A stretch of DNA of 10,339 nucleotides, taken from Acidimicrobiia bacterium (lineage in GTDB: Bacteria; Actinomycetota; Acidimicrobiia; Acidimicrobiales; AC-14). Positions 2 to 10,151 of the stretch are shown here, in pieces (the first letter of the stretch is position 1; each line of letters opens with the position of its first letter). A program made the translations under genes and the position numbers. Location: contig JAFAUA010000279.1 of assembly GCA_019243595.1 (NCBI GenBank), positions 1 through 10,339 of the forward strand, in the 5' to 3' direction. The notes beneath the pieces are model-generated. The model worked only from the letters and a program-made list of their open reading frames with translations, searched no databases and was not told the origin of the DNA.

Positions 2-2065
2 CGGACTTGGAGAGGTTTTGTCGCGGTGTGCGTTCTCGCGGGGGCGCTTGCGGCGTGCAGCTCCGGTGGCAGTACGGGCCCGCTCAAGGTCGGGGTGATG
101 TTGCCCCTCACCGGAGCGAACGCGGTGGGGTATCGCCAACCGCTGCAGTGGGCCGTCGACGCTGTCAACGGCGCGGGCGGCATCGACGGGCGCAAGCTCG
201 AGCTCGTCTTCGCCGACACCGCCAAGCAACCGGCGGCCAAGATCGCCGACAAGTTCGCCCACGACCACTCGATCGTCGCCGCCATCGGACCGGACAACTC
301 CGAGGACGCGCTCGGCGCGGCGGCGACGTTCGTCAAAGCCCACAAGGTGATCGTGACGCCTTCGGCAACGTCGGCCGACCTGTTCCGCGCTTTCGCGGCC
401 GACAATCCGCAGTTCGTCTGGCGACCCGTCGAGTCGGACATCGCCCAGACGAGGGCCCTCCTCCAGCTCGCCGACGAGCACGGCGCCACGTCCGCCGCCC
501 TCGTCACCGGCCGCAGCGCCTACGGGTCGACGTTCTTTGACTGGTTTGGCTTCCTCGCCGATGAGGCCGGTCTCAAGGTCACCACGACCATCCGCTACGA
601 CGAGTCGAGTCAGTCGTGCGACGGTCCGGTCGCCCAGGCCCTCGCAACCAATCCAGACGCCCTCATCGCCGCGCCCGACAACGTCGACCAGGCCGACTGC
701 ATGGCGCTGGCCTGGCGGCAGCACCAGGGCAGCCGTCCACCGATCTTCTTCTCCGACAGCGCGCAGTCGACGCGGGTCGACGGCACCGAGGGAACGGCGC
801 CCGCCCCCGACCCCAACAACTTCTTCACCCGCGCCTACACGGGCAACTTCGGAAAGCCGCCGCCGCCCTACGCCGCCAACACCTACGACAGCGTGCTGCT
901 GATCGCCTACGGCCTGGCCCGCTCACACGGCAGGGCGGGTGCCCCGCTCGCCCAAGCCATCCGAGACGTCACCGCTGGGACCGGTCCCACGACCGGCTGG
1001 GACGCGACCGGCGTCGGCCACGCGCTCGCCGCCATCAAGGCAGGTCAGCAACCCACGATCAACGGCGCCGTTGGTCCGTGGCGCTTCGATAAGACCGCCG
1101 GACTCGAGCTCACCGCGTCGACCTACGAGAACTGGCAGGTCTCGGGCGGTCAGTTCTCGATCGCCGGCCTCCTCCCGATGACCAGCGAGCCCAGCCCCGC
1201 GCCGACCCCCGAACGCGCCGACCGACTTGCTCCGACGCCCACACCTATCCAACTGGCGCCGAAGACGGGCACGTGGGCCCTCCTCGTTGCCGCCTCCGAC
1301 GGCTGGGACAACTACCGCCACCAGGCCGACGTCCTCGCCCAGTACCAGCGCCTGCGCGCCAACGGCGTTCCCCCCGACCACATGGTTGTCGTGATGGCGA
1401 ACGACATCGCCGACAACGCCCGCAACAAGCCGAAGGGAACGGTGCGCTACACGGTCGGCGGCCCCAACCTCGACACCGGCGTCCGCGCCGACTACTCGCC
1501 GACCAAGCTCACGGGCGGCCAGCTCATGGACGTCCTCGCTGGCCGCGCCAACCCACAGACGCCGAAGGTCATCGACAGCGGACCCGGCGACAACCTCTAC
1601 GTCTATCTGGCCGGCCACGGCAACGACAGCGGCCTCTACCTCGGACTCGGCCAGCCGGTCCCGTCGCCCACAACGCAGTACTCGGTGCTCACGCCGGCGA
1701 CGCTGGAGGACACGATCGCCCGCATGGCGACCCAGCACCGCTACCGCCAGCTGATCGTGGCCATCGAGGCCTGCCAGTCCGGCGCCTTCGGCGGCGAAGG
1801 CTTCAACGCCCCCGGCGCCCTGCTCCTGACCGCCGCCGGACCCAACGAGGACTCGCTCAGCACCAACTACGACCCGACGCTGCGCACCTGGCTGGCCGAC
1901 CAGTTCTCCTACCAGCTCTACCGAGCAGAGGCGGACCCGACCACGACGCTCGACCAGCTCTACCGGAACGTCTACCTCAACGTCGCCGGCGCCCACGTCC
2001 GCGCCTACGGCCCCAACTTCGGCGACCCGGCCACCGTCACCGTCGGCAGCTTCCTGAGCCCCTAA
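2..2065 (+). CDS. Lipoprotein fusing a type I periplasmic-binding (LivK-like) domain to a legumain-type C13 cysteine peptidase domain (5' partial)
   Basis: Numbering is from the GTG at 26. That GTG is probably not the true start: the frame is open to base 2, and the codons before it (R-T-W-R-G-F-V-A) supply the charged n-region of a lipoprotein signal peptide, so the start likely lies just upstream of the window. The lipobox is LAAC, with Cys11 as the anchor. Residues about 19-382 resemble type I ABC substrate-binding proteins (LKVGVMLPLTGAN near the start, then GGIDGRKLELVFAD); Cys198 and Cys225 could form a disulfide. A Pro/Thr-rich linker covers about 385-414. Residues about 415-679 match the legumain (C13) family closely: DNYRHQAD, a long core, AGHGND with His531, and IEACQSG with Cys583. 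Asn429, Arg431, Glu581 and Asp625 align by eye with human legumain Asn42, Arg44, Glu187 and Asp231, giving the full active site and the Asn-selecting S1 pocket. The inference is a surface-anchored asparaginyl endopeptidase with a ligand-sensing or substrate-presenting domain. The ligand is unknown; the domain calls are firm. Confidence 0.88.
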   Translation, partial: RTWRGFVAVCVLAGALAACSSGGSTGPLKVGVMLPLTGANAVGYRQPLQWAVDAVNGAGGIDGRKLELVFADTAKQPAAKIADKFAHDHSIVAAIGPDNSEDALGAAATFVKAHKVIVTPSATSADLFRAFAADNPQFVWRPVESDIAQTRALLQLADEHGATSAALVTGRSAYGSTFFDWFGFLADEAGLKVTTTIRYDESSQSCDGPVAQALATNPDALIAAPDNVDQADCMALAWRQHQGSRPPIFFSDSAQSTRVDGTEGTAPAPDPNNFFTRAYTGNFGKPPPPYAANTYDSVLLIAYGLARSHGRAGAPLAQAIRDVTAGTGPTTGWDATGVGHALAAIKAGQQPTINGAVGPWRFDKTAGLELTASTYENWQVSGGQFSIAGLLPMTSEPSPAPTPERADRLAPTPTPIQLAPKTGTWALLVAASDGWDNYRHQADVLAQYQRLRANGVPPDHMVVVMANDIADNARNKPKGTVRYTVGGPNLDTGVRADYSPTKLTGGQLMDVLAGRANPQTPKVIDSGPGDNLYVYLAGHGNDSGLYLGLGQPVPSPTTQYSVLTPATLEDTIARMATQHRYRQLIVAIEACQSGAFGGEGFNAPGALLLTAAGPNEDSLSTNYDPTLRTWLADQFSYQLYRAEADPTTTLDQLYRNVYLNVAGAHVRAYGPNFGDPATVTVGSFLSP

Positions 2066-2073
2066 GCCGACCC

Positions 2074-3678
2074 TTAACTCCTCGGCGGGACGTGGGTTGC
2101 CTTCTCGGCCAGGAACGTCTGGGCGTCGCCGATCGTCTTCACATTCGCGGCCGAAGACCCCGGCGACGGGAAGGCGGCGTCTATGGCGCCGATGAACGCC
2201 AGCTGCAGCTCGTTGAGGTTCTGGCGCGGATCCTCGACTGCGTCACCAGCGGGCCGCGGCGACACTGTCGGCCACGAGCTGGGCGACCGCGGCTTGGTGA
2301 GATTGAAGAACGGCGCCAGGTCGGGCGCCGTCTTGTCCCGCTGCGTCAGATAGGCGATGCCCCACTTTTCTTGCATGGTCCGAGCGACCGCCGTGTGGTG
2401 CAGCGGTGCGTTCACGACCGTCCCCGCCGCCGTGTACGCCGACACCAGCACCGCCGGCACCCGAACGCCCAAGCGGTCGAACATGAACCCTTCCTCGCCC
2501 GGCCGCTGACCGATGTCAGGCGTCACCGCCGCCGGAGGCGACACGTGGTCGTAGCAGCCGCCGCCCTCGTCGTAGGTGATCAGCAGCGCGGTGTTCCGCC
2601 AGTTGCTGCCGGTGGACGAGTTCGACGTTCGGATGGCGTTGTACACCTCGGCGATCAGTTGCTCGCCAGCGAGCACGCTCGACGGCGGGGTGATGTCGTC
2701 GAACAGCGGCGCCGGCGGGTGCTCGTCGTTGTGGTGGATGATCATCCGCGGCTCGATGAACGAGTACGCGGGCAACTTGCCGCCGGCCACGTCCGCGTGG
2801 AAGTCCTGCATGGTCTTGACGTTGGTCGTCAGCTTCGGCAGCAGCGGCTCGAAGTGGATGAGCGCCGTCATCGGCAACAGATCCTTGGTGTCGAAGTAGA
2901 TCCGCCACGGCAGACCCTTGTCGTCGAGACGGTTGAACACCGTCGGTGCCGTGTTGTGGAACGGGAACTGCGAGTACGGCTCGTTGCTCGTGAACCCCGA
3001 CGACGTGCCGGCATGGAAGAACGACCGGTTGCAGAACGTCTGGCTCGGCACCTCGCAGTGCCAGTGGTCGGCGACCGCGAACCCCTTCGCCAGCGTGCTG
3101 ATCACCGGCACCGCCGACGGTGGGAAGCAGTGCATGATGATGCTGTACTCGGCCTGGGTCGGCGGACGGCCCTTGTACAGCGTGAACCGGTTGATGTAGT
3201 CCTGCACGAAGCCGTTCATCGGCGCCGGGACCGGGATCGGCGACGGGGCGTTGAACGGGGCCTCCATCTTCGTCACGTCCTTGCCGGCGTTGGTCGACGG
3301 GATGACCGTGCCGAACAGGTCGGTGTTGATGTGGGGGTACTCCTCGCCCGGATCGGGGTTCGGGTCGTCCATCACCGTCCCCTGAGACACCGGGATCTTG
3401 GTGCCATCGGGCGCCAGGTTGAAGAGGTTCTTGCCGGCAACGCCGTCGAACTTCTGGCCCCGCGGCACCTTCCCCGGCGAGTACAGGTACCCGAGCATGT
3501 TGTCGAACGTGCGGTTCTCCATCATCAGCACGACGAGATGGTCGAACTGCGGGAAGCTGGCGACCGCGTTCGACGCGGGCGTTGGCGCCGCCTTCGACCC
3601 TCCGCCGCCACCGCACGCGACTCCGGCGACTAGGCCGGCACTGGCGGCAAGGAACTGCCGTCGACTGAGTTGCTGCAT
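2074..3678 (-). CDS. Tat-exported phosphoesterase (acid phosphatase / phospholipase C family)
   Basis: A 534-residue protein of the phosphoesterase family that includes AcpA-type acid phosphatases and bacterial phospholipases C. The N-terminus has a twin-arginine signal (SRRQFLAASAG, Arg6-Arg7), then GVAC-GGGGG; Cys22 could be lipidated, although Gly at -3 is not ideal for a lipobox. Family motifs are MMENRTFDN (Glu54-Asn55, expected metal ligands), a PSQTFCNR stretch that corresponds to the family P-[ST]-x-P-N-R nucleophile region, SFIEPR followed by DEHPP, and TYDEGGGCYDHV (Asp370, Glu371, His378, expected metal and phosphate ligands). The protein should hydrolyse phosphate mono- or diesters outside the membrane; the substrate cannot be told. 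The ATG at 3678 is chosen because AGGAG lies 5 bases upstream and it gives a clean Tat signal; the frame stays open further upstream, but that stretch lies inside the neighbouring gene. It lies 8 bases after the giant lipoprotein gene and is probably co-transcribed with it. It is tail to tail with the C13 fusion gene, 8 bases apart. Confidence 0.92.
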   Translation of the reverse strand: MQQLSRRQFLAASAGLVAGVACGGGGGSKAAPTPASNAVASFPQFDHLVVLMMENRTFDNMLGYLYSPGKVPRGQKFDGVAGKNLFNLAPDGTKIPVSQGTVMDDPNPDPGEEYPHINTDLFGTVIPSTNAGKDVTKMEAPFNAPSPIPVPAPMNGFVQDYINRFTLYKGRPPTQAEYSIIMHCFPPSAVPVISTLAKGFAVADHWHCEVPSQTFCNRSFFHAGTSSGFTSNEPYSQFPFHNTAPTVFNRLDDKGLPWRIYFDTKDLLPMTALIHFEPLLPKLTTNVKTMQDFHADVAGGKLPAYSFIEPRMIIHHNDEHPPAPLFDDITPPSSVLAGEQLIAEVYNAIRTSNSSTGSNWRNTALLITYDEGGGCYDHVSPPAAVTPDIGQRPGEEGFMFDRLGVRVPAVLVSAYTAAGTVVNAPLHHTAVARTMQEKWGIAYLTQRDKTAPDLAPFFNLTKPRSPSSWPTVSPRPAGDAVEDPRQNLNELQLAFIGAIDAAFPSPGSSAANVKTIGDAQTFLAEKATHVPPRS

Positions 3679-3683
3679 GTGAG

Positions 3684-3688
3684 CTCCT
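3684..3688 (-). promoter_or_regulatory. Ribosome binding site overlapping the upstream stop codon
   Basis: On the minus strand the bases read TTAGGAGCTCACATG. AGGAG sits 5 bases before the phosphoesterase ATG, and its first two bases are the last two of the TAG stop codon (3689-3687) of the upstream lipoprotein gene. A ribosome terminating on the first gene sits on the binding site of the second, which suggests translational coupling. It also fixes the start of the phosphoesterase. Confidence 0.8.
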
Positions 3689-6600
3689 AACGCGGATACA
3701 ACACAGGCGTCTCCGACCAGCCGGTCGACGACGAGTAGTGGTCGATGACCAGCGCCCGGTTGACCGACGCCACGACCGAGAACTCGCCTGCTCCCAGAGC
3801 GAAGGCCGTGATCCCGCTGCCGGGATCCGGGTGGGCCACTGCCGGCGTCGGGCCCTGCCAGCCGCCCGCCGACGTATACAAGTCGCTGACCAGCGCGCCG
3901 CCCTGTACGAAGAACAGGCGAATGGTCCCGGACGTGTCCGCCGCTGCCGCGAGCTGCGATCCGTTGTCGGGCCGTCCTGGCAGCGGAGCCGAGCCCTGCC
4001 AGGGCGCCGGAGGCCAGTACCAGTCGTTCATCAACGCCCCGTCCTGGAGGAAGAAGACGTTCATCTGCCCCCGCTGGCCCGAGACCGCCGCCAGGGGCGT
4101 CTCCTTGTCGACGCGCCCGGGCAGAACGCCGGGCCCCTGCCAGCCACCCGACGGGCTGTAGTAGTCGTTGACCAGCCTGCCGTCGTCGACGAAGAACGCA
4201 TGCGGGTTGCTCGGCCCCGGCAGCGCGGCGGCCACGCCGTTGGCGTCGGGCGAGCCCGGGAGGGGACCTGGCCCCTGCCAGCCGTCCGCAGCCGAGTAGT
4301 AGTCGTTCATCAACTGCTTGCCCTGGTGGAAGAACACGTGGCCGGTCACGGCCGCCAGCCCCGAGCTGCCGTCGGGGCTTCCGGGCAGCCCGCCCGGGCC
4401 GTTCCACCGCGACTGCGACGAGTAGATGTTGCTGACGCGGCGAGGTGACCCCTGCGTCAGATAGAAGACGTTGGACGCGCCCTGACCGTTACCGAGCGCG
4501 GCCATCCCCGGGCCGTACAACACCTCGGCGTTGCGACAGGTGGCGACGTTCCCCGTCGTCAGCGTCAGTGTGTGCTCGTAGAAATCGGGCTTGAACAGGC
4601 CGAGGTTGGTGGTGTCGCCGAACTCGAGCGTCTTGGCGAACAACGGAGTAGTGACGTTCGAAGGAGCGGCCGGTGGGTGTCGTTGATCCCCGGGGATGTA
4701 GAAGTCGCTGGGGTTGCCCGGCGTGCGGTAACCGCCGCTGAGGGGTGGGACGTTCGACAGCACGTAGCGGGCCGGCGGTCCGCTCGTCCCCACCGCCAGG
4801 TATTGCGCGCCGTCCGGCACGTTCCACGGGAAGTAGGAGCTGTTGAATGCACCCGCCTCGCACGAGAACGTGTTGGCGTCGCCGCTGTAGATCGCTTGCT
4901 GCTTCTCCGCCTGGTTGCAGGTCTGCGTGGAGTTGCAGTTGAGGTCCGTGTACCGGCGCAGCGGGGTCGGCTGGTAGGCGGCGCTCAGGACGATCGGCTC
5001 CATCCAGGCGACTGCCGATGTCGCCATCGCGTCCTCAACGTTGGTCCACTGGTCCGACGTGAGCGGGCCGTTCGCAACCGCCGCCAGCTTTCCCCAGTCG
5101 GTGACGACCATGTCGCCCAGCCAGGCGATCTGGTTGGGGACGTTGGCGTAGCGGTGGGTCATGTCGACCACGACGTCCTGGGCTGTTGTCTCGACCTTGC
5201 CCGACAGCCCGGCGCCGCCGCCGCTCGACCCGCTCGTGCTTGTGGCGTCCCCGGCGGCCGCCAGGCCCTCGGACACGACCCCAAACAGGGCGCTCAGACC
5301 CGGTTCGAAAGCGCCGGCAATCGCCCAGGCCACGCCCGCGATGTCGGAGTCGATGTCGAGCCAGAAGCTGGTGCTGCTGTTCTTGGTGTTCTGAGCATGC
5401 GAGAGGTTGACCTCGTTGAGGATGTTGGTCTCGAGCGTGTTGAGGTCGTAGTTGGTGTCGCCGCCGTTGGCGACGAACTCCGCGGCGGTCTTCAGCTTGG
5501 CGAGTCCGCGCTCGACTGAGGCGACGTAGGACGCTTCCTTCGACAGCTGCCGCGCGACCGCATTCCAGTCCGCGGTGACGAAGGAGTACCCGGGGTGCGA
5601 CGGGGGCGGCGCCACGGGTTCGCAGACGCCGTCCGCCTGGGCGGAGCAGAGGAACCCTCCGAAGTTCGTCCACTCGCCCGCCGAGATGTTGGTGTCGCAG
5701 TAGGCGTCGCGGATGCTGGGATCCTGGGGCTGCCAGCAGTGACCGTCGTGGCTCGGCCCGATCCTGAACGTCGTGTCCCAGCTGTAGTCCGGGGCGGTGA
5801 CGTCGGTGATGTACCTCAGCGCCTGCTGCTGGCCCGCCGCCGTCGACCCCGATGGACACGTCCCCGGTGCGCACGGCACCGGCCACGGCGTCGGCGGTGC
5901 GTAGGCGGCGGCCCGGAAGCCGTTGCCGATCGCGGCCCCGGTCGACTTCGTCGAGGGCGTCAGGTCGTTGCGATGGTTGCGTGCCAGCACGGCGCCCAGC
6001 CGTGCGGAGGGGTGCAGCGAGGGCGCGTCGCTGCTCGTCGTCATCGCATAGGGCGAGTCCGACCCCGGGAGGGCGAGCGAGTTCCCACCCACGAGGCTGT
6101 AGCCCGACGTGCGACCGAGGTCCCCCAGCGCCGACGGTGTGCCGCCGATACCGCCGATGGCGCCGGCGAGCTGCAGCCACTGGGCGTCCAGGGCGGCGCT
6201 CTGGGGCCGCGGCGAGCCGATGCTCTGAATGGCGATCAGGTGGTCGTTGGTGCCGTCGCTCGAGGGGTACTTGGCGAGCAGTGCGGCCATCGCCGCCATG
6301 GCGGCGCTGTCACCATTGGTGCCGTCGGCTCCGCAGCCGGTGTTGGTGGCGAACGAGGCGTTGTCGACGACGTCGAGCGTCGACGCCCAGAACACAGCGA
6401 CGTGGAATCCGCCTGTGTTCTGCGGCGACGGACACACGGTGATGGCCGGACTCTCGAGATGGACGCACGACGAATGTGGTGGCGCGTCCTGGGCGCACGC
6501 CCCGATGTCCATCGTGTTCTTCGTCCCCGTGGACCTCGCCGCGGTGTCGAGCGGGATGTAGGTGTCGGGGACGAAGCCGTAGGGATCGACGCCCCCGTTG

Positions 6601-8048
6601 GTCAGCTGGAGGTAGCCGGACAGGCCGGCCGAGAGCTGCTCGGCGTTCGCCCCCACCGCCGACGCGCTCGACGGCGGCGTGAGGTTCGACCGCCACACCT
6701 GGGGGTCGGTCGACTCGCCGATCACCGACACGAACGAGAACGGGTTGCCGGCCTGCACGTTCTTGTCCCACGTGCTCTTGTCGTTCGCCTTGTTCACGCC
6801 GATTGTCTCGAGCAGCGTCTGCCACGAGGAGTCGGCGTTGAGGCCGGCGTCGATGCCGGCCGGCGAGCTGAGCACGGCGATCACGCCCAGGGGACGGTTG
6901 CTCGTGGCGTTGTTGAGGTCGGTCAATAACCCGCTGGCGCCAGTTGGCGGGGCGACGTCGACGGCGAGGACCTCGAGCGTCTGGCGGTCCCAGACCACGA
7001 ACACGACGCCCTTCTGGCCTGGGGGAAGCGCGGCGCGCGTTCCGGCTGCGTTGGAAGGCACGACGCCGTCGAGGGCGACCCCGTTCACGCTCGCCAGCTG
7101 GGTCTGGAGATGGGCGCCCACCGGGTTCGTGGACGAGTCCTGCTCCGACACGGTCACGTCGTCGGCCGTCACCGGCCGCCCCGGTTGCATCACATAGACG
7201 CGCAGCACATACGAACCGCGTCTGTCGGCGACGAAGGTCGGCCGAGCGGTGTTCATGTTCTTCACGAAGAACGGATGCGCACCGGCCGGCGCGCTCAGGA
7301 CCGACCAGTGGTACGACACCTTCCCGCCGCCCGCGCCGGCGACGCTCGTCGCGGCGTTGAGCTGGATCGGGACCCCCGTCCCCCCCGTGACGTCCTTGCC
7401 GGCGGCCGCCAGCGGCGCCCCCTGGGCGACCTGCAGGACCACGCTCGCCTGCTGAGAGGCGCCGTCGTCGGTGACGGCCGTGACCGAGACCGTGTTCGCA
7501 CCGGCGACGATGCCGTCGCCGGCGCCCAGGGTGACGGTCCGGTTGCCCGGGGTCGGCGACAACGACGTCTTGATCGGATGGCCGTTGACCGTGGCGCCGA
7601 GCTTGCCGACCCGCTGGCCGAGGCCGATGCGCACGACCGACGCGCCGTCGCCGCTGCCCGCGTCGGCCACCGACAGGCCCAGGTTCGCCGGCGCCCCCAG
7701 CAGCCACACGTGCGACAGCTCCTTGGCCACGACGTGCGACGAGTCGAGCGCCTTTACGGTCAGCGTGTTGGCGCCAGGGGTCAGCACCGCGTCCTTGGTC
7801 CAGGTCGCACCCTGCTTCGAGAAGCGACCCAGCTCCTTGTCGCCCACCCACGCCAACACCGACGCCGGGTTCCCGGTCGCACGGGCCGCCACCGGCACCG
7901 TGGCTCCGCTGAGGATCGCCCCGTCCGCGGGTGAGGTGATCGTCAGCTTCGTCGACCCGGCGCGAGGCGACTTGTGGCTCGAGCACGCCGCGAGCGACGC
8001 GCCGAGCAGCGCGACAAGGACCCCCACAGCGACTTTCCCCCGAGCCAG
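3687..8048 (-). CDS. Giant multidomain lipoprotein with Ig-like/PKD-like domains and a C-terminal six-repeat beta-propeller
   Basis: About 1450 residues. No single known protein is recognised, but the architecture is readable. The signal peptide has R-G-K, a hydrophobic run and lipobox LAAC (Cys codon 7985-7983). An Ig-like domain follows at 7946-7698 (LTITSPADGA), a second beta-rich domain at about 7680-7415, and a PKD-like domain at about 7415-7145 (YHWSVLSAPAG, then YVLRVYV). Two segments at about 7012-6713 and 6413-6085 resemble ILEI/FAM3-like domains (tentative). The middle has about 14 cysteines, an even number that would suit disulfides, a helical stretch at about 5575-5465 and a hydrophobic Gly/Ala-rich segment at about 5345-5245. 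The C-terminus is six repeats typed by FF-x(3)-G-x-L-x(3)-Y and GWQGP, as in lectin-like propellers. Start: an ATG at 8144 is in frame, but it would overlap the divergent membrane-protein gene and give a 37-residue leader that looks like antisense of that gene. CTG at 8048 yields an ideal signal peptide (MARGKVAVGVLVALLG). GTG at 8027 has a GGGGGA-like site but loses all positive charge. The stop is certain; the start is not. Confidence 0.85.
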   Translation of the reverse strand: MARGKVAVGVLVALLGASLAACSSHKSPRAGSTKLTITSPADGAILSGATVPVAARATGNPASVLAWVGDKELGRFSKQGATWTKDAVLTPGANTLTVKALDSSHVVAKELSHVWLLGAPANLGLSVADAGSGDGASVVRIGLGQRVGKLGATVNGHPIKTSLSPTPGNRTVTLGAGDGIVAGANTVSVTAVTDDGASQQASVVLQVAQGAPLAAAGKDVTGGTGVPIQLNAATSVAGAGGGKVSYHWSVLSAPAGAHPFFVKNMNTARPTFVADRRGSYVLRVYVMQPGRPVTADDVTVSEQDSSTNPVGAHLQTQLASVNGVALDGVVPSNAAGTRAALPPGQKGVVFVVWDRQTLEVLAVDVAPPTGASGLLTDLNNATSNRPLGVIAVLSSPAGIDAGLNADSSWQTLLETIGVNKANDKSTWDKNVQAGNPFSFVSVIGESTDPQVWRSNLTPPSSASAVGANAEQLSAGLSGYLQLTNGGVDPYGFVPDTYIPLDTAARSTGTKNTMDIGACAQDAPPHSSCVHLESPAITVCPSPQNTGGFHVAVFWASTLDVVDNASFATNTGCGADGTNGDSAAMAAMAALLAKYPSSDGTNDHLIAIQSIGSPRPQSAALDAQWLQLAGAIGGIGGTPSALGDLGRTSGYSLVGGNSLALPGSDSPYAMTTSSDAPSLHPSARLGAVLARNHRNDLTPSTKSTGAAIGNGFRAAAYAPPTPWPVPCAPGTCPSGSTAAGQQQALRYITDVTAPDYSWDTTFRIGPSHDGHCWQPQDPSIRDAYCDTNISAGEWTNFGGFLCSAQADGVCEPVAPPPSHPGYSFVTADWNAVARQLSKEASYVASVERGLAKLKTAAEFVANGGDTNYDLNTLETNILNEVNLSHAQNTKNSSTSFWLDIDSDIAGVAWAIAGAFEPGLSALFGVVSEGLAAAGDATSTSGSSGGGAGLSGKVETTAQDVVVDMTHRYANVPNQIAWLGDMVVTDWGKLAAVANGPLTSDQWTNVEDAMATSAVAWMEPIVLSAAYQPTPLRRYTDLNCNSTQTCNQAEKQQAIYSGDANTFSCEAGAFNSSYFPWNVPDGAQYLAVGTSGPPARYVLSNVPPLSGGYRTPGNPSDFYIPGDQRHPPAAPSNVTTPLFAKTLEFGDTTNLGLFKPDFYEHTLTLTTGNVATCRNAEVLYGPGMAALGNGQGASNVFYLTQGSPRRVSNIYSSQSRWNGPGGLPGSPDGSSGLAAVTGHVFFHQGKQLMNDYYSAADGWQGPGPLPGSPDANGVAAALPGPSNPHAFFVDDGRLVNDYYSPSGGWQGPGVLPGRVDKETPLAAVSGQRGQMNVFFLQDGALMNDWYWPPAPWQGSAPLPGRPDNGSQLAAAADTSGTIRLFFVQGGALVSDLYTSAGGWQGPTPAVAHPDPGSGITAFALGAGEFSVVASVNRALVIDHYSSSTGWSETPVLYPR
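3690..4475 (-). repeat. Six-repeat beta-propeller (lectin-like) region inside the giant lipoprotein
   Basis: Six degenerate protein repeats of 42-47 residues end the lipoprotein. The conserved Trp codons begin at 4406, 4280, 4142, 4001, 3860 and 3719, so spacings are 126, 138, 141, 141 and 141 bases. Typical units are HVFFHQGKQLMNDYYSAADG-W-QGPGPLPG and HAFFVDDGRLVNDYYSPSGG-W-QGPGVLPG. Repeats 1 and 6 are the most divergent, and repeat 6 has WSETP in place of WQGP. Six repeats of this length are what fucose-binding or PLL-type lectin six-bladed propellers show. Sugar binding is inferred, not shown. Confidence 0.78.
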
Positions 8049-8088
8049 AACCCGGATTGTGGCATGGGACGCGCCATCATGCTGACCT

Positions 8089-8322
8089 GTGAAGTGGGCC
8101 GTGCTCGTCGTCGTGGTGATCCTCGTGGCACCGACGATCGCCAAGCGTTTGGAGGCGCTGGACCCCGAGCGCCGCGAACAACTGGCGAACGAACCGCAGA
8201 AGAAGCGCGGACCCGTCTACCGCGCCGTGCGCCGCTTCGGCCTCGGCCGCGTGTTCGCGGCTTTCGCACTCCTTGTGGTGATTCTCTCGGTCGTGGTGTA
8301 CCTCCTGACGAAGGGCGTCTGA
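8089..8322 (+). CDS. Small membrane protein with two transmembrane segments, function unknown
   Basis: A 77-residue protein starting at GTG 8089; the in-frame TGA at 8083 rules out a longer form. It has a hydrophobic segment at residues 3-18 (WAVLVVVVILVAPTIA), a charged loop rich in Arg, Lys and Glu (19-54), and a second hydrophobic segment at 55-73 (VFAAFALLVVILSVVVYLL), ending TKGV. The regular hydrophobic/charged/hydrophobic layout and G/C third positions support a real gene. No clear Shine-Dalgarno precedes the GTG, so it may be leaderless or weakly translated. It is divergent from the giant lipoprotein gene and lies 110 bases before the subtilase gene. I recognise no family; a small accessory or stress membrane protein is possible but unsupported. 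Confidence 0.66.
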   Translation: MKWAVLVVVVILVAPTIAKRLEALDPERREQLANEPQKKRGPVYRAVRRFGLGRVFAAFALLVVILSVVVYLLTKGV

Positions 8323-8432: not shown

Positions 8433-10151
8433 ATGGCAGTACGTCGCGCGATTCGGCCCTTCGCGGCCCTGGCCGCCGCAATGACGGCGATGGTGGTGAC
8501 AGCACCGCTGACGCCGGCGCAACGGACCGACGAGCACGCACGAGTCGTCGTGCTCGGCGACGCGACCGCCGCCCTCGCCCACGACGTCGCACACCTCGGC
8601 GGCACCGTCGAGCGCGAGCTCAACAGCCTCGGCGGCGTCGTCGCCGAGCTCCCGGCCACGAGCATCGACCAGCTGCGACATACCGCCGGCGTCCGCACCG
8701 TCACCGAGGACCAGGCCATCCACCTGTCCGACGCCGGGTGGGACCCGTCGACTGACGCCGGCTCCCTACCGAGCACGGCGCAAGCAGTGAACGCCGCGAC
8801 GCCCGCCGCCAGCGCGGCGACCGGCAAGGGCATCGACGTGGCGCTCGTCGACTCGGGCATCGCCCCCGTCCCCGGCCTCACCGTTCCGGGCAAGGTCGTC
8901 AACGGACCGGACATCTCCTTCGACTCCCAGAACAAGGCCAAGGGCCTCTACGGCGACAACTACGGCCACGGGACCCACATCGCCGGCATCATCGCCGGCA
9001 CCGACGGGGCGAGGAACGGCCAGTACGACGGTCTCGCGCCGGACGCCCGCCTCCTCAACGTCAAGGTCGCCGACGCGGGCGGTGCCGTCGACGTGTCCCA
9101 GGTCATCGCCGCCATCGACTGGGTCGTGCAGCACCGCACCGACAACGGCATGAACGTGCGCGTGTTGAACCTGAGCTTCGGCACCGACGCCGGCCAGAGC
9201 TACCTCGCCGACCCGCTTGCCTATGCGGCGGAAGTTGCCTGGCGAAACGGCATCGTCGTGGTCACCGCCGCCGGCAACGACGGCACGACCCTCGGCCACC
9301 TCACTGACCCCGCCAGTGATCCCTTCGTCATCTCCGTCGGCTCCGACGACACTCGCGGCACGTCGACCACCGCCGACGACGCGGTCTCGGACTTCTCCAA
9401 CTGGGGCGACGGCACGCGCAATCCCGACGTGGTCGCACCCGGCCGCTCGATCGTCAGCATGCGTGCCCCCGGCTCCTCCGTCGACACCACCTATCCGACG
9501 GCCCGCGTCAACAAGACGCTCTTCCGCGGCAGCGGCACCAGCCAGGCGACGGCGGTCGTGTCCGGCGTGGTGGCCGACCTGCTCCAAGCCCATCCCGACC
9601 TCACGCCCGACCAGGTGAAGGCGATCCTCACGTCCACCGCCCAACCGATCCCGGGCGCCGACGCCCGCGCCCAGGGGGCCGGCCTCGTCAACCTCGATGC
9701 CGCCCTTGCCGCTTCGATCCCCCAGATCACTGCCCAGGCCTGGACGGTCTCGGCGGGAGCCGGCTCCCTGGACGCGGCGCGTGGGTCGCTGCGCATCGTG
9801 CAGAACAACGTCACCCTCACCGGCGAGCAGGACGTGATGGGCCACGCCTTCGACTCGACGTCGATGGCCGCCGCCGAAGCCACCGCCAGCAGCTGGAGCG
9901 GCGGCACGTGGAACGGGAGCTCCTGGTCCGGCAGCAGCTGGTCGGGCTCGAGTTGGAGTGGCAGCTCGTGGTCCGGCAGCAGCTGGTCGGGCTCCTCCTG
10001 GTCCGGCAGCAGCTGGAGTGGCAGCAGCTGGTCCGGCAGCTCCTGGTCGACGGCCGGGTGGGGCGCCACCGCGACCGTGTGCCTCAAGCCCAACGGCAAA
10101 CCGATCAACAAGTGCTCAGCCGAGGTCCAGTCCAACACCCAGTGGGGATAG
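8433..10151 (+). CDS. Secreted subtilisin-family (S8) serine protease with Trp-Ser-Gly-Ser-Ser repeat tail
   Basis: A 572-residue protein. A Sec signal peptide (residues 1-29, RR near the start, likely cleavage after TPA) is followed by an inhibitor I9-like propeptide (about 35-100, HARVVVLGD through VRTVTEDQAIH). The S8 catalytic domain spans about 118-430: Asp140 in ALVDSGI, His179 in GHGTHIAG, oxyanion Asn282 in TAAGNDG and Ser370 in RGSGTSQATAVVSG, so all catalytic residues are intact. About residues 486-543 hold 12 tryptophans at exact five-residue spacing, then a short tail with two cysteines (CLKPNGKPINKC) that could close a disulfide. The protease should be exported and self-activated by removing its propeptide. 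The Trp repeat is an obvious candidate for wall, glycan or surface attachment, but this is inference. The membrane-protein gene downstream starts 4 bases after this stop, so the two are likely one operon. Confidence 0.95.
   Translation: MAVRRAIRPFAALAAAMTAMVVTAPLTPAQRTDEHARVVVLGDATAALAHDVAHLGGTVERELNSLGGVVAELPATSIDQLRHTAGVRTVTEDQAIHLSDAGWDPSTDAGSLPSTAQAVNAATPAASAATGKGIDVALVDSGIAPVPGLTVPGKVVNGPDISFDSQNKAKGLYGDNYGHGTHIAGIIAGTDGARNGQYDGLAPDARLLNVKVADAGGAVDVSQVIAAIDWVVQHRTDNGMNVRVLNLSFGTDAGQSYLADPLAYAAEVAWRNGIVVVTAAGNDGTTLGHLTDPASDPFVISVGSDDTRGTSTTADDAVSDFSNWGDGTRNPDVVAPGRSIVSMRAPGSSVDTTYPTARVNKTLFRGSGTSQATAVVSGVVADLLQAHPDLTPDQVKAILTSTAQPIPGADARAQGAGLVNLDAALAASIPQITAQAWTVSAGAGSLDAARGSLRIVQNNVTLTGEQDVMGHAFDSTSMAAAEATASSWSGGTWNGSSWSGSSWSGSSWSGSSWSGSSWSGSSWSGSSWSGSSWSGSSWSTAGWGATATVCLKPNGKPINKCSAEVQSNTQWG
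9888..10061 (+). repeat. 15-bp tandem repeat encoding W-S-G-S-S units
   Basis: Trp codons begin at 9894, 9909, 9924, 9939, 9954, 9969, 9984, 9999, 10014, 10029, 10044 and 10059: 12 codons with no deviation from 15 bases. The units encode mainly W-S-G-S-S, with edge variants WSGGT, WNGSS and WSTAG. Serine codons vary (AGC, TCC, TCG, AGT) between units, but a 26-base block beginning at 9924 recurs identically at 9969, showing a three-unit (45-base) duplication. Confidence 0.93.

Follow-up and report, generated by a model that had tools for sequence, protein, structure and literature searches.

We analysed a 10,339-nucleotide stretch of DNA (the window) that is the entire contig G000:C239:1-10339 of an Acidimicrobiia draft genome (3.7-Mb, 597 contigs, 81% complete). 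The gene at its left end encodes a lipoprotein in which a substrate-binding protein (SBP) domain of the Venus-flytrap type is joined, in one frame, to a legumain-type peptidase domain of family C13. The same fusion recurs in other genomes, and we tentatively propose a lipid-anchored asparaginyl endopeptidase that acts at the cell surface under the control of an amino-acid-like ligand.

A lipoprotein with a binding domain and a C13 peptidase domain

The gene is a single uninterrupted frame of 687 codons (687 amino acids, aa), and it runs off the contig start. The contig begins inside the signal peptide and the start codon therefore lies beyond its end; the earliest in-frame start that is visible, a GTG at 26, would leave just 10 residues ahead of the lipobox cysteine. 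The partial signal peptide and lipobox are followed by the SBP domain, a linker and the C13 domain. The lipobox, LAAC (residues 16-19), was recognized by eye behind a hydrophobic stretch, as in bacterial lipoproteins. Pfam matches were obtained for Peripla_BP_6 (residues 27-333, 98.9 bits with a cut-off of 31.7, E 6e-28), ANF_receptor (residues 49-322, 43.3 bits, cut-off 25.4) and Peptidase_C13 (residues 424-670, 164.7 bits, cut-off 22.8, E 3.9e-48), and the SBP fold extends past the end of its Pfam match to about residue 390-395. An earlier note on this DNA, made from its letters alone, had described a lipoprotein with a ligand-binding domain, a Pro-rich linker and a C13 peptidase domain in one frame, and had expected these two principal Pfam families; the open frame, the lipobox and the Pfam matches confirm that description, and the linker is indeed Pro-rich in the window protein.

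Conservation was assessed in an alignment of 80 sequences, from which nine of 89 proteins (<600 aa) were excluded and which includes an oyster legumain (P0087) and two copies of the window protein (P0001 and P0002); other counts use 79 or 78 sequences. A crude lipobox pattern is found in 54 of the 80, many of the others being N-terminally cut short. The window genome has one place that matches C13 and 17 that match Peripla_BP_6. Another large lipoprotein of this genome (799 aa, L009, G000:C403, 1372-3771, minus strand) has two binding domains per chain, the N-terminal half looking by eye like a phosphate-binding-type SBP and the C-terminal half matching Peripla_BP_6.

Recurrence and distribution of the fusion

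A search of 5.8 billion protein sequences returned 88 relatives, and 81 of these (one being the window's own protein) carry precomputed labels for both C13 and an SBP family. The remaining seven comprise three C13-only records, one of which (P0041) begins within the SBP, three legumains without an SBP (one from oyster and two metagenomic) and one SBP. Members by name include Acidimicrobiia, Leekyejoonella antrihumi (strain C5-26), Dehalococcoidia and Myxococcales, to which genome contigs add Plesiocystis pacifica SIR-1 and several deltaproteobacterial and Thermodesulfobacteriota bins. Custom profiles placed both halves in one frame at 25 of 28 loci; the three others (L076-L078) have a weak C13 match only. 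Two of the 25 (L018 and L063) are the same stretch, leaving 24 distinct loci, and L105 and L067 bring the number of distinct fused loci to 26. This recurrence disposes of an assembly join, which the earlier note had named as grounds for abandoning its claim.

The fusion architecture is rare and patchy. The C13 cut-off is passed by one of 395 genomes from the window's class and one of 396 from its phylum, in both cases the genome of the window itself. For the phylum of G755 (locus L012, a Myxococcales bin), matches at E 0.001 were obtained in 34 of 377 genomes. Of these 34, 15 match at E <1e-15 and 19 have best E values from 3e-10 to 9e-4; the gene was read in the 15 and is the fusion in 12 of them. 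The full fusion is found in 3 of 395 genomes in the phylum of G760 (L017; this phylum includes G763/L020, a Thermodesulfobacteriota bin), where two candidates were scored for most genomes, and the SBP half alone matches in 22 of the 395 at E 1e-30. Some genomes have two or three paralogous fusions: G973 (L071, L072 and L073), G759 (L016, L061 and L062) and G761 (L018 and L067). Two C13 frames on long contigs, P0104 and P0110, start in the middle of the SBP and are perhaps disrupted fusions or sequencing frameshifts.

Mobile spread was rejected: of 16 matching plasmid records none covers more than 80% of the query (the eight listed among these match the SBP half alone, over 51-53%), and no phage record matches the fusion at E 1e-5. 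The PADLOC anti-phage defence models yielded no matching family, so that a known defence system was rejected, and neither structured RNA nor tRNA was found in the window.

The flytrap half

The SBP half is by descent a LIV/HAAT amino-acid-binding protein, a family to which both the curated profile match and the fold assign it. The putative pocket positions S100, T123, Y174 and D252 are kept in the fusions. From LIV-binding proteins we take S100 and T123 to be ligand contacts and D252 to contact the ligand amino group. Two other features set the fused domains apart from 25 free SBPs, taken from 22 loci in a sample of one phylum: the cysteine pair C206/C233, and a helix (residues 173-188, motif TFFDWFGF) that directly follows the putative ligand-loop residue Y174 and is aromatic almost only in fusions. 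Both are absent from the free SBPs.

The protease half

The C13 half is, judged by sequence, a legumain. Its best solved relatives are legumains, animal legumain being the closest: a profile of the family scores 208 bits with animal legumain, at most 163 bits with other asparaginyl endopeptidases and at most 159 bits with glycosylphosphatidylinositol (GPI) transamidase, and identity with the last was rejected on these values. The earlier note would have been refuted by a score as another clan CD family with no C13 match; C13 is the top peptidase match, and such a family was rejected. For the caspases and metacaspases (C14) there is no Peptidase_C14 match in Pfam, and the NCBIfam model caspase_w_EACC1 reaches merely 23.1 bits (cut-off 140).

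The catalytic dyad of His539 and Cys591, aligned to that of legumain, is invariant, as are R439, H440 and S618, and N437, E589 and D633 are nearly so (Table 1). The S1 pocket, which we take to consist of R44, H45, E187, S216 and D231 of legumain plus S215, is retained in the aligned family at the first five positions and altered at S215, where the aligned residue, 617, is N in 46, D in 23 (including the window protein) and S in 4 of 80 sequences. The residue before the catalytic His is Gly in 77 of 79 and Asp in six eukaryotic-type legumain rows, one of which is an oyster protein. Because the dyad and S1 pocket are kept and the profile is legumain-like, an Asn-specific endopeptidase would be the natural expectation. 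Animal and plant legumains have a C-terminal prodomain, which is not a trait of the whole C13 family; no such family is among the Pfam matches of the window protein, and the chain ends at 687, with the C13 match ending at 670. Four further proteins (P0106-P0109) are small stand-alone C13 proteins of bacterial type (290-317 aa) with signal-peptide-like N-termini.

Predicted arrangement of the two halves

An AlphaFold model of the window protein built from 57 sequences has a mean predicted local distance difference test score (pLDDT) of 94.8 and a predicted template modelling score (pTM) of 0.92, with linker blocks at 82-86. A member with 34% identity (P0085, modelled from 23 rows chosen among the more distant relatives) has a pLDDT of 90.1, linker blocks at 87-94 and a pTM of 0.87, reached even though its 52 N-terminal residues are disordered. 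Domains without a defined arrangement would give a pTM of about 0.6 in a crude estimate with assumed errors. Because the pTM values exceed this estimate and the linker pLDDT is high, the two halves are predicted to form one rigid body in which the linker is an ordered strap and not floppy.

The region 385-422 measures 33-50 aa in 79 relatives. Self-cleavage of the linker was rejected as an explanation: Asn makes up 1.5% of the linker versus 3.1% of the body, and 44 of 79 linkers are free of Asn versus 20 expected. This shortage may mean avoidance, but Pro and Thr are also raised there, and we do not use it as evidence.

Evolutionary history

The pairwise identities of the two halves are correlated (r 0.885; 99 rows, including the window protein twice; maximum of 500 permutations 0.246). 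The trees include only six C13 rows of eukaryotic type and were midpoint-rooted, because the outgroup did not come out as monophyletic in the raw trees. In them the fused SBPs form a single clade of 78 (support 0.775). The C13 domains of the fusions likewise group in one clade (0.856), inside which the four stand-alone C13 proteins P0106-P0109 are nested beside P0043 and P0064 (supports 0.873 and 0.918); two of these four were scanned and have C13 alone, with no SBP. These results, with trees of moderate support, are most simply explained by one fusion, after which the two halves were inherited together and the flytrap was occasionally lost.

Neighbouring genes

The surroundings of the fusion were analysed at the 26 distinct loci, with upstream DNA covered for 23 of them (the three others being the window, L061 and L064). 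From 24 loci we collected 97 neighbouring open reading frames (ORFs) of at least 180 aa within ~1.2 kb, which were scanned as sets of 69 and 28, plus four from L067 and L105. No LIV-type ATP-binding cassette (ABC) transporter lies beside the fusion at these loci; one may be encoded elsewhere in the genomes. LivH and LivM, queried with proteins from L106 and L107, have no match in the 352,186 bases around the 26 loci, and the LIV ATPases of L106 and L107 match one stretch only, in L072, at 28-31% identity. Neither BPD_transp_2 nor ABC_tran was found in the 69 ORFs (E 1e-15) or the remaining 28 (E 1e-6). One of the 69 matches an ABC-2 export-type permease family, and this family occurs among the scanned neighbour ORFs at L072.

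A gene for a Bmp/PnrA-like lipoprotein lies directly upstream of the fusion at 5 of the 26 loci (L012, L013, L014, L017 and L062), where the stop codon of that gene and the earliest start possible for the fusion overlap by 4, 4, 4, 1 and 19 bases, respectively. In both the window and L010, genes for a phosphoesterase and a large lipoprotein lie downstream of the fusion on the opposite strand (Table 1). The window's large lipoprotein has matches to Glucodextran_B and PKD that stay below the cut-offs, and C-terminal WQGP-rich repeats that resemble, by eye, a lectin-type propeller. Beyond it, at 8433-10151 on the plus strand, is a subtilase (PF00082) with a long run of SGSSW repeats at its end.

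Two large lipoproteins are common to L017 and L105 (36-37% identical); at L105, the frame 4366-6858 matches GON above the cut-off and 1456-4362 matches a C-type lectin domain. An S41 peptidase gene is found downstream of the fusion in L061. Two-component genes occur near the fusion in L010 and L011, with differing types and orientations. The remaining neighbours are diverse and include kinases, MutS, a 5'-nucleotidase and a TonB receptor, among others, one each.

Table 1. Positions of the fusion gene, its domains and residues, and selected neighbours. Coordinates are those of the window unless a locus is named; legumain residue numbers are those we take to be equivalent.
Feature	Coordinates	Strand	Basis or conservation
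Fusion gene, lipoprotein SBP + legumain (687 aa visible)	2..2065	+	open frame, Pfam; 5' end beyond contig
Partial signal peptide and lipobox LAAC; lipid-bearing Cys19 at 56-58	2..58	+	sequence
Substrate-binding (Venus-flytrap) domain, Peripla_BP_6 / LIV-HAAT type, residues 27-392	80..1177	+	
S100, putative ligand contact	299..301	+	S in 75/80
T123, putative ligand contact	368..370	+	T in 76/80
Helix 173-188, motif TFFDWFGF, candidate protease-docking surface	518..565	+	structure model, comparison of fused and free SBPs
C206, member of conserved cysteine pair	617..619	+	C in 78/78 fusions, 0/25 free SBPs
C233, partner cysteine	698..700	+	C in 77/78 fusions, 0/25 free SBPs
D252, putative ligand amino-group contact	755..757	+	D in 78/80; 77/78 fusions, 3/25 free SBPs
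Linker 395-421, predicted ordered strap	1184..1264	+	pLDDT 82-86; 87-94 in distant member
Legumain-type C13 catalytic domain, residues 422-687	1265..2062	+	
NYRH: N437, R439, H440 (legumain N42, R44, H45)	1310..1321	+	79, 80, 80 of 80
Catalytic His539 (legumain H148)	1616..1618	+	80/80
E589, S1 pocket (legumain E187), and catalytic Cys591 (legumain C189)	1766..1774	+	E in 73, D in 7 of 80; C in 80/80
S618, S1 pocket (legumain S216)	1853..1855	+	80/80
D633, S1 pocket (legumain D231)	1898..1900	+	75/80, N in 5
Phosphoesterase (PF04185), twin-arginine-type start (by eye)	2074..3678	-	90% identical gene beside L010 fusion
Large lipoprotein, 1485 aa from first start	3687..8144	-	58% identical gene beside L010 fusion
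Bmp/PnrA-like genes	L012 9006-9980, L013 8997-9980, L014 8961-9980, L017 8916-9962, L062 2142-3140 (-)		some deltaproteobacterial lineages

A possible ligand-controlled protease

In the mechanism that we tentatively favour, the lipid anchor suggested by the lipobox would keep the protein on the outer side of the membrane, and the C13 half, with its dyad and S1 pocket kept, would cleave after Asn in extracellular or surface proteins. The N-terminal half, formerly a binding protein of amino-acid transport, would now be a built-in receptor; the retained pocket positions suggest that it binds an alpha-amino-acid-like ligand, and it would feed no ABC transporter. The open or closed state of the flytrap could then be relayed to the protease by way of a rigid interface. 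Docking of the halves is predicted by the models; the position of the interface and the gating are our conjecture, and the interface may comprise the aromatic helix adjoining the ligand loop together with the ordered linker. The flytrap would thereby replace the C-terminal prodomain by which eukaryotic legumain is controlled and which is absent from the fusion protein. The earlier note had suggested ligand-gated or substrate-guided proteolysis, which is plausible in view of the conserved pocket, the predicted rigid docking and the lack of an adjacent LIV transporter. More doubtful is a fuller version, in which a ligand-switched single-chain legumain receptor protease was invented once, spread over several phyla and is partnered, in some deltaproteobacterial lineages, by a co-transcribed Bmp/PnrA-like lipoprotein.

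Several points limit the case for control by a ligand. We infer the surface location, the cleavage after Asn, the binding of a ligand and the transmission of its state to the protease, and a contact of the aromatic helix with the protease is conjectural. A mere scaffold would also give a rigid predicted body, and the two structure models are not independent, 21 of the 23 rows used for the second being common to the first alignment. Coevolution between the halves, calculated from 99 sequences, places 12 inter-domain pairs among the top 60, without a coherent patch. Finally, the four nested stand-alone C13 proteins show that a protease of this clade can survive on its own.

The flytrap might instead be a guide and not a switch, holding the substrate or catching a product, either a peptide end or a free amino acid set free beside the protease, and so raising the local efficiency of a protease that is always on. 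We consider this unlikely. It would fit the kept pocket positions and the predicted rigid packing of the halves, and the overlap of the gene for the Bmp/PnrA-like binding lipoprotein with the fusion start, at the five loci given above, looks as if binding partners matter. However, legumain releases peptides whereas the ligands held by LIV/HAAT pockets are single amino acids or small acids, and there is no nearby LIV permease for the uptake of a captured product.

We give less credence again to a flytrap that is a stalk or docking platform, presenting the protease to adjacent surface lipoproteins that it matures, with the pocket a relic or the site of a structural ligand. Several neighbours are large secreted lipoproteins (the one at 3687-8144 of the window and the two common to L017 and L105), and both the aromatic helix and the cysteine pair could serve to reinforce the structure. 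Yet conservation extends to the pocket positions, which would not be required of a relic, and the neighbours vary between lineages.

A transpeptidase or ligase, attaching proteins to a partner at the surface in the manner of GPI transamidase and the plant peptide asparaginyl ligases, is improbable, as the profile of the C13 half is nearest to animal legumain and further from the other asparaginyl endopeptidases and GPI transamidase. An artefact of assembly or gene calling, for which the shortness of the contig and its beginning inside the gene might speak, has next to no chance of being the explanation and is already refuted by the two-domain relatives and the 26 distinct loci, Leekyejoonella antrihumi C5-26 and Plesiocystis pacifica SIR-1 among them.

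Relation to known systems

Both parts of the protein belong to known families; as far as we have seen, the combination and its likely mode of control appear undescribed. The earlier note knew of no described system with this architecture, and we found no account of an SBP-legumain fusion in the open-access literature, which was partly surveyed, subscription papers and preprints being outside its scope, so that this negative carries little weight. Bacterial C13 peptidases themselves are known, and public records already call single members of the family 'Legumain' or 'C13 family peptidase'. A review table lists the C13 family for bacteria (PMC4357240), and a C13 gene, abrp, has been reported from Acinetobacter baumannii (PMC11615727); compared by description only, its product resembles the fusion in being a bacterial C13 peptidase and differs in that the passages on it mention no flytrap. 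C13 is also named as the legumain family and as a cystatin target, in passages of PMC2784779 in which bacterial legumains are absent.

Compared with animal legumain, the fusion protein lacks the prodomain and adds an N-terminal flytrap and a lipobox; fusions also have Gly in place of Asp before the catalytic His, and N or D at S215 in 69 of 80 sequences. GPI transamidase subunit PIG-K/GPI8, which is part of a eukaryotic membrane complex, gives a weaker profile match, as stated above. From the LIV/HAAT binding proteins (LivK TM1135, 3td9; LivJ, 4gnr; and 4mlc) the fusion differs by its attached protease, the aromatic helix, the cysteine pair and the lack of a nearby LIV permease. By description, not by sequence, it can be likened to GlnH of Actinobacteria, an amino-acid-sensing lipoprotein linked to PknG (PMC6069109); GlnH signalling is proposed to pass via a separate membrane protein to the kinase, whereas the output of the fusion would be a protease in the same chain.

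The C13 domains of the fusions would provide bacterial relatives for tracing the origin of eukaryotic legumain, a question beyond the scope of the present trees. If the proposed control by a ligand is true, the family would offer biochemistry a small-molecule-controlled Asn-specific protease, or possibly a ligase. Regulation of a legumain by a ligand would be new as well; enzymes of this group are otherwise restrained by a prodomain. Venus-flytrap domains drive channels, kinases and G-protein receptors, and a protease as direct output within the same chain would be a new kind of output for them.
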